From Roseibium aggregatum (GTDB taxonomy: Bacteria; Pseudomonadota; Alphaproteobacteria; Rhizobiales; Stappiaceae), in assembly GCF_014692675.1 (NCBI RefSeq), contig NZ_JABFCZ010000009.1, forward strand, positions 1 to 64,000: a stretch of 64,000 nt of DNA, written 5' to 3'. The notes under the pieces are model-generated. The model was given only the letters and a program-made list of their open reading frames with translations, did no database searches and had not been told where the DNA came from. Below are positions 14,097 through 46,400 of the stretch, in pieces. The translations under genes and the position numbers were made by a program. Numbering within the stretch: position 1 is the stretch's first letter; every line of letters begins with the position of its first letter.

Positions 14097-15509
14097 ATGA
14101 CGCAAGCCAGGACGCTTTACGACAAGATCTGGGACGACCATGTGGTCGACATGCAGGAAGACGGAACGGGCCTGCTCTACATCGACCGTCATCTGGTTCA
14201 TGAGGTGACCAGCCCCCAGGCCTTCGAAGGCCTGCGCATGACCGGTCGCAAGGTTCGCCAGCCGCACAAGACCCTGGCCGTTGTCGACCATAACGTGCCG
14301 ACCACCGACCGCAGCCACGGCATCGACGATCCGGAATCCGCCCTGCAGGTCGACACGCTGGCAAAGAACGCCGCCGACTTCGATGTCGAGTACTATAACG
14401 AACTCGACCACCGCCAGGGCATCGTCCACATCGTCGGGCCGGAACAGGGCTTCACCCTGCCGGGCATGACCATCGTCTGCGGCGACAGCCACACCTCGAC
14501 CCATGGCGCCTTCGGCGCGCTGGCACACGGTATCGGCACCTCGGAAGTGGAACACGTTCTGGCCACCCAGACGCTGATTCAGAAAAAAGCCAAGAACATG
14601 CTGATCCAGGTGGACGGCAAGCTGCCGGAAGGCGTGACCGCCAAGGACATCATTCTGGCGATCATCGGAGAGATCGGCACCGCCGGCGGCACCGGCTATG
14701 TCATGGAATATGCCGGCGAGGCGATCCGCGAGCTCTCCATGGAAGGCCGCATGACCGTCTGCAACATGTCGATCGAGGGCGGCGCCCGCGCCGGCCTGAT
14801 TGCGCCGGACGAAAAGACCTTCGCCTATATCAAGGGCCGCCCAAAAGCTCCGACCGGCGAAGCCTGGGACCGCGCCGTCGAATACTGGAAGTCGCTGCAC
14901 ACCGAAGAAGGTGCGCATTTCGACAAGATCGTCGAACTCGATGCCGCCAATCTGCCGCCGATCGTCACCTGGGGTTCGTCTCCGGAGGATGTCGTCTCCG
15001 TGACCGGCGTCGTCCCGAACCCGGACGACATCGAAGACGAAACCCGGCGCACCTCCAAGTGGCGCGCGCTGGAATACATGGGCCTGAAGCCCGGCACGAA
15101 GATCACCGACATTGAGCCCAATGTCGTTTTCATCGGCTCGTGCACCAACGGCCGTATCGAGGATCTGCGCGCCGCCGCCGCCGTCATCGGCAACGGCAAG
15201 GTCAAGGACGGGATCCGCGCCATGGTGGTCCCGGGCTCCGGCCTCGTGAAGGAACAGGCGGAAGCCGAAGGTCTGGACACCATCTTCAAGGCGGCCGGTT
15301 TCGAATGGCGCGAGCCGGGATGTTCCATGTGTCTGGCCATGAACGCCGACAAGCTGGCGCCGGGCGAGCGTTGCGCATCCACGTCGAACCGCAACTTCGA
15401 AGGCCGTCAGGGCTTCAAGGGCCGCACCCATCTGGTGTCCCCGGCCATGGCCGCGGCAGCCGCCATTGCCGGCCATTTTGTCGACATTCGCGAATGGCAG
15501 GCGCCCTGA
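14097..15509 (+). CDS. leuC: 3-isopropylmalate dehydratase large subunit
   Basis: A 470-aa aconitase-family subunit that, with LeuD, isomerises 2- and 3-isopropylmalate in leucine synthesis. The [4Fe-4S] ligands are in [14 protein letters not shown] (Cys near 350) and GCSMCLAMN (near 408 and 411). Substrate and catalytic segments [12 protein letters not shown] and [13 protein letters not shown] are present. AGGAG lies 6 bases before the ATG. leuD is not next to it here, so the small subunit is encoded elsewhere. A perfect terminator hairpin follows, making leuC monocistronic. Confidence 0.97.
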
Positions 15510-15543
15510 TTCGACGCAATTTGGCCTGAGGTTGGCCTGAAAC

Positions 15544-15578
15544 AAACGGGCGCCCACCGGGCGCCCGTTTGCATTTTG
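15544..15578 (+). terminator. Terminator after leuC
   Basis: AAACGGGCGCCC pairs perfectly with GGGCGCCCGTTT around a 3-base loop (15544-15570), followed by GCATTTTG. Confidence 0.8.
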
Positions 15579-15637
15579 TCGCGGGTTCTTCGCCCCGACA
15601 AAGTCGCCTGGTTCGTTCATTTCGAAATTTCAAATGG

Positions 15638-15652
15638 TTAACAGGCATTAAC
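15638..15652. promoter_or_regulatory. CtrA-like half-site pair with 6-base spacer
   Basis: TTAACAGGCATTAAC lies about 160 bases before the HNH gene. The CtrA consensus is TTAA-N7-TTAA; this one has N6, so binding is doubtful. Confidence 0.3.
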
Positions 15653-15809
15653 CCCGGCCTGCACCGGGTGTCTCAGAATTGGGATTTGCGAATTTATCAG
15701 GCTTCACAAGAGTGTCACAGCCGCTCTACAATACTCGCGTCTCATGAGGACAGGCCTTGCGTCCGCACAGCCGGACGACAGCCGTCCGAGCAGGCATGAG
15801 GAGCGGAAG

Positions 15810-16367
15810 GTGACGATAGCGGTTTCGTCTGGAGCACACCCGGCTTTGGTGCTCAATGCGGACTACCGGCCATTGAGCTACTACCCCCTGTCTCTCTGGT
15901 CGTGGCAGGATACGATCAAGGCTGTGTTTCTCGACAGGGTGAACATCGTGTCGGAATACGACACCTGTGTCCGAAGTCCGAGCTTCGAGTTCCGATTACC
16001 CAGCGTCGTTTCCCTCAAGAGTTACGTCAAGCCCAGCCGCTACCCTGCCTTTACCCGTTTCAACGTCTTCCTCCGCGACAAATTCCAGTGTCAGTATTGC
16101 GGCTCCAGGGAGGAGCTGACCTTCGACCACCTCGTTCCCCGGTCGAAAGGTGGACAGACGACCTGGGACAATGTCATCACCGCCTGCTCGCCCTGCAATC
16201 TCAAGAAGGCCAACAAGTCCTGCAAGCAGCTGAACATGTGGCCGATGCACATGCCGTTTCAGCCGACCATCCAGGACCTGCACAACAACGGCCGCGGTTT
16301 CCCGCCGAATTACCTCCACGAAAGCTGGCTCGACTTTCTCTATTGGGATACGGAACTGGAGCCGTAA
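15810..16367 (+). CDS. HNH endonuclease family protein
   Basis: A 185-aa single-domain HNH protein. The nuclease motif is complete: zinc ligands CQYC (Cys 94 and 97) and CSPCN (126 and 129), with the catalytic segment FDHLVPRSKGG (His 107) and WDN. The start is GTG at 15810, with AGGAG 6 bases upstream, rather than the in-frame ATG at 15744. Homologues of this type are chromosomal and widespread in alphaproteobacteria without a methyltransferase partner, so a restriction role is not supported here. Substrate and role are unknown. It precedes the TadG-like pair on the same strand. Confidence 0.87.
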   Translation: MTIAVSSGAHPALVLNADYRPLSYYPLSLWSWQDTIKAVFLDRVNIVSEYDTCVRSPSFEFRLPSVVSLKSYVKPSRYPAFTRFNVFLRDKFQCQYCGSREELTFDHLVPRSKGGQTTWDNVITACSPCNLKKANKSCKQLNMWPMHMPFQPTIQDLHNNGRGFPPNYLHESWLDFLYWDTELEP

Positions 16368-16520
16368 TCATCGGCTTCGCGCGGCGCCCCGGGTTTCATC
16401 AATCGAAGTAAGCAACACTTAACCGAGACCGCAGGTTCCTCGATATTTCTTACAGATTTTAATAAATAAGAATTGGTTTTGTCCGACGCTCCCGGCAGGT
16501 CACATCCTGGAGAGTGCGTC

Positions 16521-17864
16521 ATGTTTTCAGCTGCCCGCCGACAGCTCAGGTTTTCTGCGGCCCGGTTCGCAGAGAACGCAAGCGGTTCGATCCTGCCGAT
16601 GGTCGCGATCATGGCCGTCATCCTGCTCGTCGTCGGCGGCGCCGCCGTGGATTACAGCCGCGCGATCGGCAATCGCACCACCATGGCAAACGCGTTGGAT
16701 GCCGCAGCTCTGACCATTGCCAGCCAGTTGTCATCCTCGGTCATGACCGATGCGGAAATCGGCCAGAACCTGAAGGACGCGTTCACGGCCAATCTCAACA
16801 ACATGGGCTATTCGGACGCCGCCATAGAAAACCTGCAGCACACCATCAACAGCGACGCCGGCACGATCCACGTGTCCTCCTCGATCGCCATCCCCACCAA
16901 ATTCATCCATATCGGCGGAATCGGGCCGGACACGATTTCGGTCGGCGTGGAAACCGAGGTGTCCTATTCCAAATTCGATGTCGAGCTCGCCCTGGTACTC
17001 GATGTGACCGGCTCCATGAGCGGCGACATGACGACCCTGAAGGAGGCCGCAAATTCCCTTGTCGACACCCTGATTCCGAAAGGTACGTCCGAAGCCGACA
17101 GCAAGATCCGGATTTCGATCGTCCCCTACAGCCAGGGCGTCAATCTCGGCGAATTCGCCCAGGCCGTGACCGACGGCAACAAGGGAACCAGGAACTGCGT
17201 GACCGAGCGAACCGGCGATGCCCAGTATACGGACGATCCTTACGATTATGATGCGACCAATGCGGAATCCTATTTCGGCGGCGGCTCCGACGGTTGCGCC
17301 TCGACGCCGCAGATGGAGCCGCTGACCGCCAAGCGCAACAAGCTGACCACGGCGATCAACAAGCTTTCCGCCAGCGGTTCGACTGCCGGCCAGACCGGGA
17401 TTGCCTGGGGCTGGTACTCCCTGTCGCCCAACTGGACAAACCTGTGGCCGACGAAAAGCGCCCCCGGCGACTACGGTGACGACGAGATCCTGAAATTCGC
17501 GGTCATCATGACCGACGGCGATTTCAACACTTATTACAATTATGAAGATCATCGGGAGTGCAAAGGCTGGGGCTGGGGCCGGAAATGCTCGACGGTCAAG
17601 GGTTGGACGGAGAAAAGGGAATCGGAAAACGACACCAACATCTCCTCGACACGGGCCAAGGCACTCTGTTCCGCAATGAAGGACGAGGGGGTCGACGTCT
17701 ATACGATCTATTTCGGTTCGAACAGCAGCTCGGCCGGCGCGAAGGTCATGAAATCCTGCGCCACCAGCGGATCGACCTTCTACATGGCCTCATCCGATGA
17801 TGCCCTGGTCGCCGCCTTCGGCAACATCGCCAAGAAAGTGCAGGCAATCTATCTCGCAAAATAG
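16521..17864 (+). CDS. TadG-like pilus-assembly protein with von Willebrand A domain (copy 1)
   Basis: A 447-aa secreted or membrane-anchored protein. A single N-terminal membrane segment (PMVAIMAVILLVVGGAAVDY, about residues 30-50) has the Flp/TadE-TadG-type junction SGSILPM. A vWA domain begins at VELALVLDVTGSM (about residue 155). The metal-ion site reads DVTGS, a DxTxS form of DxSxS, with IMTDGDFN later. The start ATG at 16521 follows GGAGAG. The next gene is a close paralogue. No other tad/cpa gene is nearby, so assignment to a Flp pilus is by family only; an adhesin role is equally possible. Confidence 0.85.
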   Translation: MFSAARRQLRFSAARFAENASGSILPMVAIMAVILLVVGGAAVDYSRAIGNRTTMANALDAAALTIASQLSSSVMTDAEIGQNLKDAFTANLNNMGYSDAAIENLQHTINSDAGTIHVSSSIAIPTKFIHIGGIGPDTISVGVETEVSYSKFDVELALVLDVTGSMSGDMTTLKEAANSLVDTLIPKGTSEADSKIRISIVPYSQGVNLGEFAQAVTDGNKGTRNCVTERTGDAQYTDDPYDYDATNAESYFGGGSDGCASTPQMEPLTAKRNKLTTAINKLSASGSTAGQTGIAWGWYSLSPNWTNLWPTKSAPGDYGDDEILKFAVIMTDGDFNTYYNYEDHRECKGWGWGRKCSTVKGWTEKRESENDTNISSTRAKALCSAMKDEGVDVYTIYFGSNSSSAGAKVMKSCATSGSTFYMASSDDALVAAFGNIAKKVQAIYLAK

Positions 17865-18073
17865 GACTGCCAGGCATCAGACTTCAATTCTATATCCGTA
17901 ATTGTTCTGTTCCGAATTTCTACTTATAGTTTGAAAATAGTTTCAAATAATCCGAGAGGATTTATATTATTTCGCAGGAAAAGTGGTTAATGTATATAAC
18001 TTTATACATTTGATTTAAGAATTCTCCAACTTTTATAAGATATGTAAAGCTGGTTGACCTTGGAGTCGCCTCG

Positions 18074-42320: not shown

Positions 42321-43202
42321 ATGGTGGTCGAAATCAAGAAAGTCGGTGTGATTGGAGCTGGTCAGATGGGCAGCGGGATCGCCCATGTCTGTGCTCTGGC
42401 CGGGTTCGACGTGGCCTTGAGCGATCTCTCCATGGAAAAGATCGAATCGGGTCTTGCCTCGATCAACGGCAACATGGCCCGGCAGGTTCAAAAAGAGCAG
42501 ATTAGCGAACAGGTGCGGACCGCCGCCCTCGACCGGATCACGCCTGCGGTCGATCTCGACCTTTTGAGCAATGTCGATCTTGTCATCGAATCGGCCGTCG
42601 AAAACGAACAGGTCAAGCGCAAGATCTTTTCCCAGCTCTGCCCGATCCTGAAACCGGAAGCGATGCTGGCAACCAACACATCGTCGATTTCCATCACCCG
42701 GCTGGCCGCCTCCACGGACCGCCCGGAACGGTTCATCGGGATCCACTTCATGAACCCGGTTCCGCTGATGGAACTGGTCGAGCTGGTCCGCGGCATTGCC
42801 ACCGAGGACGAAACCTTCGAAGCGGCGAAGGCATTCGTCGACCGCCTCGGCAAGCAGATCGCCGTTGCCGAAGATTTCCCCGCCTTCATGGTCAACCGCA
42901 TCCTGCTGCCGATGATCAACGAGGCCATCTACACCCTTTATGAAGGGGTCGGATCGGTGGAATCCATCGACAAGGCCATGAAGCTCGGCGCCAACCACCC
43001 GATGGGTCCGCTGCAGCTGGCTGACTTCATCGGCCTCGACACCTGCCTGTCGATCATGCAGGTGCTTTATGAAGGCCTCGCCGATACCAAGTACCGGCCG
43101 TGCCCGCTTCTGGTGAAATATGTCGAAGCCGGCTGGCTCGGCCGCAAGACCCAGCGGGGCTTCTACGACTATCGCGGCGAAACTCCGGTTCCGACCCGCT
43201 AA
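42321..43202 (+). CDS. hbd: 3-hydroxybutyryl-CoA dehydrogenase
   Basis: A 293-aa NAD-dependent dehydrogenase that oxidises 3-hydroxybutyryl-CoA. The nucleotide motif GVIGAGQMGSGIAH is at residues about 9-22, and the catalytic His and Glu are in GIHFMNPVPLMELVE. The C-terminal domain contains GANHPMGPLQLADFIGLDT. Context after etfBA suggests a role in short-chain acyl-CoA or polyhydroxybutyrate metabolism. Confidence 0.95.
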   Translation: MVVEIKKVGVIGAGQMGSGIAHVCALAGFDVALSDLSMEKIESGLASINGNMARQVQKEQISEQVRTAALDRITPAVDLDLLSNVDLVIESAVENEQVKRKIFSQLCPILKPEAMLATNTSSISITRLAASTDRPERFIGIHFMNPVPLMELVELVRGIATEDETFEAAKAFVDRLGKQIAVAEDFPAFMVNRILLPMINEAIYTLYEGVGSVESIDKAMKLGANHPMGPLQLADFIGLDTCLSIMQVLYEGLADTKYRPCPLLVKYVEAGWLGRKTQRGFYDYRGETPVPTR

Positions 43203-43209
43203 ATTCGGG

Positions 43210-44688
43210 ATGAATCTTGCCCGCTATTGCCTGACAAATGCGTCGCCCGCCGCGGAAGCGATCGCGCTGGAAGTGGTCGGTCCGAACGGCGCCCTGAAAG
43301 AGCGCTGGACTTACGGCGACATTGAAAGGACCGTCCTTTCCATCGCCGGCGGACTAACCGAAAAAGGCCTGATGCGCGGCGACCGCATCCTGTTGCGGCT
43401 CGGCCACTCCAGCGACTTCCCGCTGGTCTATTTCGGCGCGATCGCCGGCGGTTTCGTTCCGATCCCCACATCCGAAATGCTGACCTCGGCCGAAGCGACC
43501 GCGATCCTTGAAGACAGCGGCGCGGCCGCCGTCGTCCATGACGGGCGCACGGCCCTGCCCGAAGGCAACGCACTGGTCCTCGGACCCGACGAGCTGACAG
43601 CCCTCAAGCAGTTCGGCGGTGGCGTTTACGCGGACACCAAGCCCGACGACCCCGCCTTTCTGATCTATACATCCGGCACCAGCGGAACCCCCAAGGGCGT
43701 TCTCCATGCACAGCGCGCCGCCATCGGGCGGGCGCCGATGTACAAGGGCTGGTACGGCATGTTCTCCGCCGACCGGCTGCTGCATGCCGGCGCCTTCAAC
43801 TGGACCTACACGCTCGGCGTCGGCCTGATGGACCCCTGGGCCAACGGCGCCACGAGCCTTGTCTATGACGGCCCCCGCGACCCGGAAATCTGGCCGGGTC
43901 TCATCGAAAGCTGCAAGGCGACCCTGTTTGCCGCCGTCCCCAGCCTTTACCGGCGCCTTCTGAAATACGGCGATGTCACCACCGGATCGTTCCCGTTCCT
44001 GCGCCACGGCCTGACGGCCGGCGAAGCGCTTCCGGCCGGCCTTCACCGCGAATGGGTCGAACGCACCGGGCGTCCGCTTTATGAGGCGCTCGGCATGAGC
44101 GAGATTTCCACCTACATTTCCAGCGGCCCGACGGTCCCGACCAGGCCCGGATCGCCCGGAAAGCCCCAGGCAGGCCGGAAAGTCGCCATCCTGAGCGAAG
44201 ACGGAGATGGAGAGGAATTCGCCGCCACCGGCGAAGCAGGCCTTCTGGCGGTGCACGAGAGCGAAACCGGCCTGATGCTCGGTTACTGGAACCGCCCCGA
44301 AGAAACCGCCGCCGCCTTCCGGGCCGGATGGTTTCTGACCGGCGACCGGGCGCGCGCGGATCAGGAAGGTTATTACTGGTACGAAGGCCGCGCCGACGAC
44401 CTCATGAACGCCTTCGGCTACCGCGTGGCCCCGGAAGAAGTCGAACGGGCGCTCGGCGCCCACCCGGACGTGCTGGAGGTCGCGGTGACAAGCGTAGAGG
44501 TGCGCGAAGGCGTGAGCCTGATAACCGCCTTCATCGTTCCCAGGACCTCTGGCTGGCATGACGAAACCGCCCTGGCCAACTGGGCGCACGATCGTCTCGC
44601 CGAATACAAACGCCCGAAAGCCTACCGCTTCGTCGCATCGCTGCCCCGAACGCCCTCGGGCAAGATCCGCCGAAAAGCGCTAGTTTAG
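43210..44688 (+). CDS. AMP-dependent acyl-CoA/benzoate-CoA ligase family protein
   Basis: A 492-aa adenylate-forming ligase. The phosphate loop YTSGTSGTPKGVLHAQ, the GMSEIS substrate/adenylate segment and the hinge and lysine loop (GRADDLMNAFGYRVAPEEVE, TPSGKIRRKAL) are intact. Sequence style is close to benzoate- and short-chain-acyl-CoA synthetases. ATG at 43210 (MNLARYCLTN) is chosen; it lies 7 bases after the hbd stop, so the gene is co-transcribed. The acid it activates is unknown. Confidence 0.85.
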   Translation: MNLARYCLTNASPAAEAIALEVVGPNGALKERWTYGDIERTVLSIAGGLTEKGLMRGDRILLRLGHSSDFPLVYFGAIAGGFVPIPTSEMLTSAEATAILEDSGAAAVVHDGRTALPEGNALVLGPDELTALKQFGGGVYADTKPDDPAFLIYTSGTSGTPKGVLHAQRAAIGRAPMYKGWYGMFSADRLLHAGAFNWTYTLGVGLMDPWANGATSLVYDGPRDPEIWPGLIESCKATLFAAVPSLYRRLLKYGDVTTGSFPFLRHGLTAGEALPAGLHREWVERTGRPLYEALGMSEISTYISSGPTVPTRPGSPGKPQAGRKVAILSEDGDGEEFAATGEAGLLAVHESETGLMLGYWNRPEETAAAFRAGWFLTGDRARADQEGYYWYEGRADDLMNAFGYRVAPEEVERALGAHPDVLEVAVTSVEVREGVSLITAFIVPRTSGWHDETALANWAHDRLAEYKRPKAYRFVASLPRTPSGKIRRKALV

Positions 44689-44718: not shown

Positions 44719-44733
44719 TTAACGCCTCTTAAC
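44719..44733. promoter_or_regulatory. CtrA-like site with 6-base spacer
   Basis: TTAACGCCTCTTAAC lies 31 bases before the YjfB-like gene. The spacing is N6 rather than the consensus N7, so it is a weaker candidate than the box at 33646. Confidence 0.4.
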
Positions 44734-44764: not shown

Positions 44765-44971
44765 ATGGACAGTACAGGCATTGCTGCGACCTACGCAGTC
44801 ACGTCACAGGCACAGACACAACAGGCCCTTCAGGCGCAGATGATGAAGATGGCCGCGGCTCAGGATGCAAGCGTCGTCGCACTGCTCCAGTCGGGAGCCG
44901 AGAACCTGGCCGAAACGACAAGCGCCGCCCCGCCGGCGGGCATGGGCAACGTGGTCGACGTGACCGCCTGA
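44765..44971 (+). CDS. YjfB-like putative motility protein (68 aa)
   Basis: A 68-aa helical protein with MDSTGIAATYAVTSQAQTQQ at the N-terminus, a methionine/alanine-rich helix and the end GMGNVVDVTA. It resembles short YjfB-family proteins, some of which occur with flagellar genes. GGAG precedes the ATG. It shares its C-terminal motif with the next two small genes. A perfect terminator follows. No flagellar gene is in the window, so a motility role is by family resemblance only. Confidence 0.65.
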   Translation: MDSTGIAATYAVTSQAQTQQALQAQMMKMAAAQDASVVALLQSGAENLAETTSAAPPAGMGNVVDVTA

Positions 44972-44995
44972 AACATTTCCGCTCCAAAAGGGACA

Positions 44996-45024
44996 AAGCC
45001 GCTCAATTGAGCGGCTTTTTTTAT
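44996..45024 (+). terminator. Rho-independent terminator
   Basis: GCCGCTCAATTGAGCGGC is a perfect palindrome followed by TTTTTTT, 25 bases after the YjfB-like stop. Confidence 0.9.
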
Positions 45025-45204
45025 TTTAATCCAAACAATGCGGATTGCCTTACACCTCAACACCTTACCCAAAGTTCGCTAAAATTTTATTCAAATACAT
45101 ATCATGTATAAAACACAGCATGAAGTCTGAATTACATTAGTTTTACGCCTTTACTTTTATTTACTTCTCGACGTTTTAAATATCTGGCAAGTCGGTCCCA
45201 AGAA

Positions 45205-45477
45205 GTGGATAGAACGATGCCGGAAGGAATTGGATACGGCGTACAGGCCGCATCCGCCTCTTCTGCGGCGACATCGCAACGCCAGAAGGTGGCGGAACAG
45301 GTTGAACGGATCAGCGCCCGCAAGGAAAAAACCGTTGCCGCGGTTGTCCAGAGGCAGGCGAGCTTCAGCGCCAACAGGGCCGAGACCCTGACGCGGCAGG
45401 CCGAAAAGGCTCAGGATCGCGTCGAGTCCCGAGAGGCCCGGAACGGGCTGGGGCTCAGGCTGGACGTCAGCGTTTGA
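45205..45477 (+). CDS. Small coiled-coil hypothetical protein (90 aa)
   Basis: A 90-aa, Ala/Glu/Arg-rich, strongly helical protein (residues about 20-80 look like a coiled coil) ending GLGLRLDVSV. The start is GTG (45205), or ATG at 45217; neither has a strong ribosome-binding site. The roughly 180 AT-rich bases upstream suggest a separate promoter. No family was recognised. The C-terminus matches the pattern of the genes on both sides. Confidence 0.6.
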   Translation: MDRTMPEGIGYGVQAASASSAATSQRQKVAEQVERISARKEKTVAAVVQRQASFSANRAETLTRQAEKAQDRVESREARNGLGLRLDVSV

Positions 45478-45519
45478 TAAGGTGCGCGCCCTCCCGGCGC
45501 GCCGAACAGGAGAAGAAAC

Positions 45520-45726
45520 ATGGACAGCGTTTCCAGCGCAGGCTCAGCCGCCTCACAGGCTGCCGGTCTCCGGAGTGAACTGGCGACCAATGCCATTCGC
45601 GATGCGAATGAACAGGAGCAGGCAGTCGCTGACCGGCTCGAGGACGCCCAGTCGAACGAGCAGGAAGCCCGCCGTCAGCAGCGGCAGATTCCCGGCCTCG
45701 GCCAGGCAGTCGACATCACCGCCTGA
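45520..45726 (+). CDS. Small hypothetical protein (68 aa)
   Basis: A 68-aa protein with MDSVSSAGSAASQAAGLRSE, a charged Gln/Glu/Arg-rich helix and the end GLGQAVDITA. AGGAG lies before the ATG (AGGAGAAGAAACATG). Composition and C-terminus parallel the 68-aa YjfB-like protein at 44765. It ends 11 bases before the convergent TlpA gene. Confidence 0.62.
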   Translation: MDSVSSAGSAASQAAGLRSELATNAIRDANEQEQAVADRLEDAQSNEQEARRQQRQIPGLGQAVDITA

Positions 45727-45737
45727 CCTGAATTCGT

Positions 45738-46400
45738 CTAGTTGGCCTTCGTCTTCAAGGCGGCGGTCAAAAGAGCTTTGGCCTCGTCGGATGCCCATTC
45801 GGCGGGGCCATACATTGTTCCGATCTCGCATCCCGAAGGTCCGACGAGAATCGTCGTCGGCAGGCCCGTCGCCCGGGCCTTCGCCTTGAGATCCTTGAGG
45901 ATGCCGTTGCTGGCGTCGCTGTAGAAACCGAGGCGGCTGACGCCGATTTCCTTCCAGAACGCCTTTGGCTTCTCCGGACCGCTCCGGTCCACATTGACCG
46001 CAACGACCTGGAAATCCTGATTTCCCATTTCCCCCTGAAGTTCATCGAGCGCCGGCATTTCCTTGCGGCAGGGCGCGCACCATGTCGCCCACAGGTTCAG
46101 CAAAATCGTGCGATCTTCGAAATCGCTGATGCGCACCGGATTTCCGTCCGGCCCGTCGAACGTCAGCTCCGAAAGCCCGAGAGGACGTTCCGCAGGACGG
46201 AAGGCGGCGACCTCGCCGGTGGCAAACGGCCTGGTCTGCTCCGCCAGCGCCATTTCCAGCGCGCAGCTTTGCGTATCGTCCGTGTTGCCATGCGGGCCGA
46301 CGATCACGTATACCGCCGCAAGGACGGCGGCAGCGCCGGCAATGCCTGCGGCGATCAGACGTCGTTTCGGGCGTTGTCCAGGTTCGGTCGGCTGGGTCAT
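45738..46400 (-). CDS. tlpA: TlpA-family thiol:disulfide reductase
   Basis: A 220-aa thioredoxin-like protein anchored by one N-terminal membrane helix (about residues 13-35) with the active site WATWCAPCRKEMP (Cys108 and Cys111) in the periplasm. TlpA reduces disulfides for cytochrome c and cytochrome oxidase assembly. The cis-Pro motif ATGLPTTILVG is present. It is divergent from argH by 41 bases, an arrangement I recall as common in Rhizobiales. Confidence 0.93.
   Translation of the reverse strand: MTQPTEPGQRPKRRLIAAGIAGAAAVLAAVYVIVGPHGNTDDTQSCALEMALAEQTRPFATGEVAAFRPAERPLGLSELTFDGPDGNPVRISDFEDRTILLNLWATWCAPCRKEMPALDELQGEMGNQDFQVVAVNVDRSGPEKPKAFWKEIGVSRLGFYSDASNGILKDLKAKARATGLPTTILVGPSGCEIGTMYGPAEWASDEAKALLTAALKTKAN

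Follow-up and report, generated by a model that had tools for sequence, protein, structure and literature searches.

A tandem trio of small genes in Roseibium aggregatum that carries the C-terminal signature of the YjfB family

Introduction

The yjfB gene of Bacillus subtilis presumably belongs to the sigma-D regulon, and the profile of the YjfB family (Pfam PF14070, ‘putative motility protein’) also rings in this species. One study places YjfB, a small protein that it treats as uncharacterised, in a flagellar superoperon together with sigma-28 and FapA (PMC10802407). Among the papers found on YjfB and PF14070, none announces a function for the protein in its title or the opening of its abstract. 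In a second study, the full site of the regulator CtrA is given as TTAA-N7-TTAAC, and CtrA controls motility in the bacterium concerned, though its motility genes are without clear boxes (PMC3692519).

The present analysis concerns a stretch of 64,000 nucleotides from Roseibium aggregatum (the window), which is part of contig 130 of a 5.66 Mb genome. The genus was formerly named Labrenzia. Three small genes of the window, here termed P1, P2 and P3, form a small gene cluster that is real and conserved and belongs to a family already known but not yet characterised. New to us are a C-terminal signature at a fixed position and its retention on protein bodies that no longer match YjfB.

The locus and its genes

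The trio is preceded by an AMP-binding ligase gene (43120–44688) and followed by a TlpA-like thioredoxin gene in the reverse orientation (45738–46400), an argininosuccinate lyase gene and a lysA-like gene, all named from their Pfam families. Ten neighbouring ORFs scanned against Pfam included no flagellar gene. The three ORFs of the preliminary description, with their C-terminal sequences, were recovered at the positions it gave (Table 1), except that the start of P2 has been moved. This gene most likely begins at the ATG at 45217 rather than the GTG at 45205, because a methionine stands there in all 31 aligned distinct P2 sequences, the starts of which were picked by script. The remark that two of the proteins begin with MDS is correct for the window; among distinct orthologous sequences it applies to 24 of 33 for P1 but to only 2 of 32 for P3.

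Table 1. Features of the P1–P3 locus (positions in the window).
Feature	Position	Strand	Description
CtrA-like box TTTA-N7-TTAAC, 5' of P1	44708–44723	+	one base off TTAA-N7-TTAAC
TTAAC-N5-TTAAC, overlapping the CtrA-like box	44719–44733	+	seen in the sequence
P1	44765–44971	+	68 aa; diverged YjfB (PF14070) relative; tail GMGNVVDVTA
Tail of P1, including stop	44939–44971	+	strict tail pattern match
Intrinsic terminator, 3' of P1	44995–45025	+	10-bp stem, then T run (read from the sequence)
P2	45217–45477	+	86 aa; no Pfam family; tail GLGLRLDVSV
Tail of P2, including stop	45445–45477	+	strict tail pattern match
P3	45520–45726	+	68 aa; no Pfam family; tail IPGLGQAVDITA
Tail of P3, including stop	45694–45726	+	strict tail pattern match

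The tail of P3 reads GLGQAVDITA. Downstream of P1 the region 44972–45030, which contains the terminator, folds as RNA with −19.1 kcal/mol (z −4.08). Because of this strong terminator P1 is probably transcribed on its own, with P2–P3 as a second transcript. The gap between P2 and P3 is 42 bases long and contains a GGAG, and the two genes probably share one transcript.

Orthologues were assigned with phmmer, with ORFs longer than 400 residues and duplicate proteins excluded. In a sample of 61 genomes, P1 and P3 are each present in all 37 of the Roseibium genomes and lie within 2 kb of each other on one contig in 36 of these; in the remaining genome (G027) they are found on two contigs, each close to an end. 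The rates of difference between orthologues at codon positions 1, 2 and 3 are 0.227, 0.171 and 0.544 for P1, 0.349, 0.265 and 0.583 for P2, and 0.255, 0.164 and 0.572 for P3, so that the third position varies 1.7 to 3.5 times as often as the first two. Such a concentration of changes at position 3 is what translated genes should show, and all three are genes under selection. These sequence comparisons show P1, P2 and P3 to be real genes whose tandem arrangement is kept throughout Roseibium.

P1 is a diverged relative of YjfB

Residues 6–67 of the 68 of P1 align with the whole PF14070 profile (positions 1–57 of 57), with a score of 19.4 bits (E 0.0011) that does not reach the curated cut-off of 27. 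The resemblance of the first protein to YjfB, noted beforehand, is borne out by its orthologues, since each of the 33 distinct P1 sequences has a PF14070 match at E≤1, the best being 2.2e-8. Seven further Roseibium orthologues were scored against the cut-off; two pass it (31.6 and 31.9 bits) and five fall short (21.2 to 26.1), as does the one P1 orthologue checked from another genus of the same family. P1 is termed a diverged YjfB relative here, and not a PF14070 member, because the window copy lies below the cut-off and two of the seven orthologues above it; by profile score the orthologue group straddles the Pfam boundary. A PF14070 search of the R. aggregatum genome itself gives no match at E≤0.001, the window P1 being too diverged, and a search of NCBIfam returned only noise.

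Matches to the P1 profile (E≤0.01) occur in 64 of 249 genomes of the order, representing 34 of 111 genera. Among these 64 are all seven genomes that the sample shows from other genera of the same family. In a genome of another family (G060) a lone P1-type gene has a 3-hydroxyacyl-CoA dehydrogenase gene on one side and TlpA-like and argininosuccinate lyase genes on the other. As this single gene sits in the same neighbourhood as the window trio, gene order suggests that P1 is the older gene of the three.

The C-terminal signature

The tail has a fixed geometry when counted from the C-terminus: Gly at −8, Val, Ile or Leu at −5, Asp or Asn at −4 and a hydrophobic last residue. It is present in 33/33 P1, 31/31 P2 and 32/32 P3 distinct sequences, so that the shared terminal tag proposed previously is constant in every sequence tallied. 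Loss of the tails in orthologues had been named as a sign of chance similarity and was looked for; the tails are conserved and the proposal stands. The same geometry is found in all 29 PF14070 hits examined across Pseudomonadota (L154–L182), taken from a phylum sample with 43 PF14070 matches in 40 of 347 genomes. Homologues outside Roseibium were also re-selected on the body alone, by searching a P1 profile lacking its last 12 columns against ORFs lacking their last 12 residues (E≤0.01); the geometry was present in 30 of 30 distinct sequences, though the loci themselves came from full-length profile searches (for one search, the best 30 matches), which may have missed homologues without a tail. 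The comparison identifies the shared tail as a C-terminal signature of the YjfB family, held at a fixed distance from the C-terminus.

P1 is thus alike to the YjfB proteins of PF14070 in its tail geometry, and is of similar length. The two differ in detail. All 33 P1 sequences have Gly at −10, compared with one of the 29 phylum-wide hits, and residue −4 is Asp in 32 of the 33 P1 sequences and Asn in 19 of the 29 hits; Asn also replaces Asp in one P1 and four P2 sequences. No tallied sequence extends past the tail. This strict anchoring at the C-terminus suggests that the free carboxyl group may be part of the recognised feature.

Within Roseibium the mean majority identity of the last ten columns, compared with that of the body, is 0.82 against 0.79 for P1, 0.70 against 0.68 for P2 and 0.89 against 0.75 for P3. 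Because the values for P1 and P2 are barely above those of the body, the tail stands out in conservation across the family and in P3, and hardly at all in P1 and P2 within the genus.

For a search of the genome at DNA level the tail was written as G-[ILMV]-G-x-x-[ILMV]-D-[ILMV], a codon NSN, [AV] and a stop, with the Leu codons TTA and TTG excluded. This strict pattern has three matches in 5.66 Mb, all at P1, P2 and P3, and its reversed control has none. A looser pattern (G-x-G-x-x-[ILMV]-D-x-x-x-stop) shows no enrichment, with seven matches in the genome against 13 for its control. The seven are P1–P3, a 59-residue ORF, what look like an ABC-type ATPase and a response regulator, and one match that does not end in a stop.

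The 59-residue ORF provides a fourth tail, GTGSKVDITA, and lies on the minus strand between recF and gyrB (G000 contig C44:73924–74100; L183:9925–10101). GAGGA precedes its ATG, and its body is rich in Pro, Gly and Asp and non-helical in appearance. Among 12 contig-end stretches from six other Roseibium genomes, recF–gyrB was found only in G005. The gap there is too short for a counterpart, and the ORF has therefore been left out of the finding.

Relationship of P2 and P3 to P1

The window P2 has no PF14070 match at E≤10, and none of the 32 P3 members matches at E≤1. Comparison of profiles connects P3 with P1 over the full length (E 1.1e-5 for the single pair, probability 82%), whereas for P1–P2 and P2–P3 the support sits at the tail end. 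In two genomes the P3 profile matches the same protein as the P1 profile (4.8e-8 in G317, 3.3e-8 in G356). It does so weakly in two more (0.0015 in G490, 0.0022 in G042), where matches without a tail score alike; such tail-less matches in G516, G440 and G444 range from 2e-4 to 0.0058. As a single query, the window P3 matches the P1 orthologue of G024 (E 0.004, 38% identity). With its tail columns included, the P1 profile picks up 46 P2 and 37 P3 ORFs at E≤0.1, the best at 8.6e-5, counts in which overlapping loci repeat genes.

The picture changes when the tail is removed. Among the ORFs of the loci compared, the tail-trimmed P1 profile finds no P2 and no P3, and the tail-trimmed P2 profile finds P2 only. 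The tail-trimmed P3 profile reaches single YjfB-like proteins at 1.7e-4 and 1.6e-3, and an unrelated ORF at 8.5e-4. From these comparisons P3 is probably a paralogue of P1 and P2 possibly one. A common ancestor is suggested for P3, and less clearly for P2, with the tail kept and the helical bodies diverged. Since no body-only profile links P1 with P2 or P3, either the bodies would have diverged quickly after duplication or the tail would have been reused on other bodies. The view of the trio as one diverged family therefore holds as far as descent is suggested, but the tail-trimmed P1 and P2 profiles leave the bodies unjoined.

A tandem trio is also present in another genus of the same family (G390, locus L118), with the tails GTGGFVDVTV, GMGNRVDVTV and GLGNAVDITA. 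It differs from that of the window in its strongly diverged P2 and P3 bodies (body-only E 1.4e-9 for P2 and 0.083 for P3). The loci examined from two further genera (g211 and g213) show one such gene each. A genome from another family of the order (G372, locus L131, 1498–2520, minus strand) likewise has three small YjfB-like genes in tandem, with the tails GVGGNLDVTV, GTGEVLDISV and GSGGSLDITV, but on other bodies; for the second and third of them Pfam gives no match at E≤0.01. This trio looks like a separate, independent expansion.

Upstream elements

The CtrA-like box before P1 (Table 1) is the sole match to TTTA-N7-TTAAC in the 64 kb, both strands included. The exact form TTAA-N7-TTAA is present in 27 of 33 regions upstream of P1 orthologues and in 24 of 31 named Roseibium loci, a set overlapping the first, mostly 51–61 bases 5' of the start. 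It occurs in none of 1949 other 150-base windows on the same strand of the same loci, and in 10 of 6200 shuffles. Outside Roseibium the full box precedes the gene in 4 of the 27 relatives examined (from loci L114–L141, 27 of 28), and these four all belong to the same family. Over the whole genome the exact box shows no enrichment (43 matches against 44 for the control), and its weight therefore rests on its conservation before P1. By this conservation, the greater part of the genus has a CtrA-type promoter element in front of P1. A sigma-28-like promoter, searched for with a spacer pattern of our own, was found before none of the 33 P1 sequences.

No such box precedes P2 in any of 31 orthologues. 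Upstream of P2, at approximately 45080–45190, two AT-rich blocks, TaaAatTTTA...AAAT and aTTTACctt, are conserved in the orthologues.

Elsewhere in this genome an exact box lies about 215 bases upstream of a FliO-like gene, which scores 21.2 bits and so just misses its cut-off, and of fliP. Some kilobases away flhB adjoins the gene for a PAS-type hybrid kinase, whose domains we read as CckA-like. These features lie at G000 C41:109080–112842 and 115208–118034 (L184:9081–12843 and 15209–18035).

Association with flagella

The sample of 249 genomes of the order includes incomplete ones; FliM is detected at E≤0.01 in 175 and above its family cut-off in 170. P1-type genes are found only in genomes with FliM. 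All 64 genomes with a P1 relative, among them marginal matches with E up to 0.0064, have FliM, compared with 111 of the 185 without (Fisher p 2e-12), and by genus the figures are 34 of 34 compared with 81 of 111 overall (p 1.8e-6), with the p-values overstated because genomes related by descent are not independent. The link of the P1 family to a flagellar or motility role is correlative. In a sample of the class PF14070 is found in 8 of 241 genomes, all eight with FliM, which is present in 138 of the 241; this overlap was dropped as evidence, the eight hits being too few and too related.

Among 20 proteins neighbouring the alphaproteobacterial relatives, two at each of 10 loci out of a set of 11, none is flagellar by Pfam: 14 matched other families and six had no match.

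The genome also contains a second, far more distant FliM (G000 C86:149801–150355; 101 bits compared with 221), which occurs in G019 and G390 as well and perhaps represents a second flagellar system.

Predicted structure and a possible mechanism

AlphaFold models of P1 and P3 each consist of one helix (residues 3–51 and 3–54, respectively) followed by an unstructured tail. Confidence is low, with mean pLDDT of 59.8 and 70.5, which is too weak for a fold search. The mainly helical bodies of these models agree with the description of the trio as small helical proteins. A profile search of the PDB yielded no solved relative, its best match (E 0.62) being at chance level.

A mechanism can be proposed in which the three proteins act as helical adaptors linked to the flagellum, each with a docking peptide at its C-terminus, and their genes arose by local expansion around one YjfB-type gene; we regard this proposal as evenly poised between right and wrong. 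Each protein would consist of one α-helix, a short flexible linker and a tail peptide of the form G-x-G-x-x-V-D-V/I-S/T-A/V-COOH. The tail would dock by its end into one common partner in the flagellar system. CtrA would cause P1 to be made together with the flagellum, and P2–P3, from a promoter of their own, would present other helical bodies at the same docking site, as adaptors that compete or serve as alternatives. With its alternating residues, the V-D-V-T-A ending could join a β-sheet of the partner as an extra strand. Alternatively, it could occupy a carboxylate-binding groove in the manner of a PDZ ligand.

The signature does not vary among the tallied sequences when counted from the final residue, which leads to a concrete hypothesis, namely that a free C-terminal peptide fits a single partner. 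If this is correct, the tail could serve as bait for that partner. The family would also be wider than Pfam shows, because the tail picks out candidates with bodies that have ceased to match.

A variant of this proposal takes the C-terminally anchored tag (Gly at −8, Val, Ile or Leu at −5, Asp or Asn at −4, a hydrophobic residue at −1 and the free carboxylate) rather than the helix as the conserved unit of the YjfB family. The tag would be a transplantable means of docking to the flagellum, kept on or moved to unrelated helices, and its single receptor in the flagellar machine would be shared by several competing small adaptors. The 59-residue ORF, which ends in such a tail without looking helical, would fit this reading. 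Our estimate of it was lowered slightly by the lack of enrichment of the looser pattern and by the tail clearly surpassing the body in conservation only in P3, and it is now considered rather doubtful.

Docking to a flagellar partner has further to be set against other roles for the tail or the proteins. The trio could belong to a cell-cycle or polarity programme controlled by CtrA, the correlation with flagella being secondary since CtrA would drive motility in these bacteria. The box before P1, the CckA-like domains of the hybrid kinase beside flhB and the non-flagellar neighbours found in Alphaproteobacteria would all suit such a programme. PF14070, however, also rings in B. subtilis, which is not known to have CtrA. 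The placing of YjfB in a flagellar superoperon (PMC10802407) and the presence of FliM in 64 of 64 genomes with a P1 relative point the same way, and a role in the cell cycle or polarity is judged unlikely. The tail as an export signal, by which the proteins would pass out via the flagellar export gate, or via a type I exporter recognising the C-terminus, to act outside the cell or in the filament, would account for the strictly C-terminal position and for the co-occurrence with FliM. Short C-terminal signals in which an acidic residue is followed by hydrophobic ones are known from type I substrates. Flagellar export signals, on the other hand, are N-terminal as far as is known, and the seven matches to the looser pattern include no larger tail protein that looks exported, which makes export improbable as well.

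The free C-terminus with its hydrophobic and mostly small last residue, common to every tallied member, could also be read as an element recognised by a protease, which would govern the turnover of the three proteins as short-lived helical regulators. The conservation reaches Gly at −8, and mostly −10 in these alphaproteobacterial proteins, probably further than a simple degron needs, and this role is thought quite improbable. That three unrelated small ORFs are alike by chance would be in keeping with P2 and P3 bodies that, once the tail is removed, are not detectably related to P1. Coincidence can nonetheless be set aside with near certainty: the strict pattern occurs three times here and nowhere else in the genome, the tail is kept in every orthologous sequence tallied, and the same trio is found in another genus of the family (L118).
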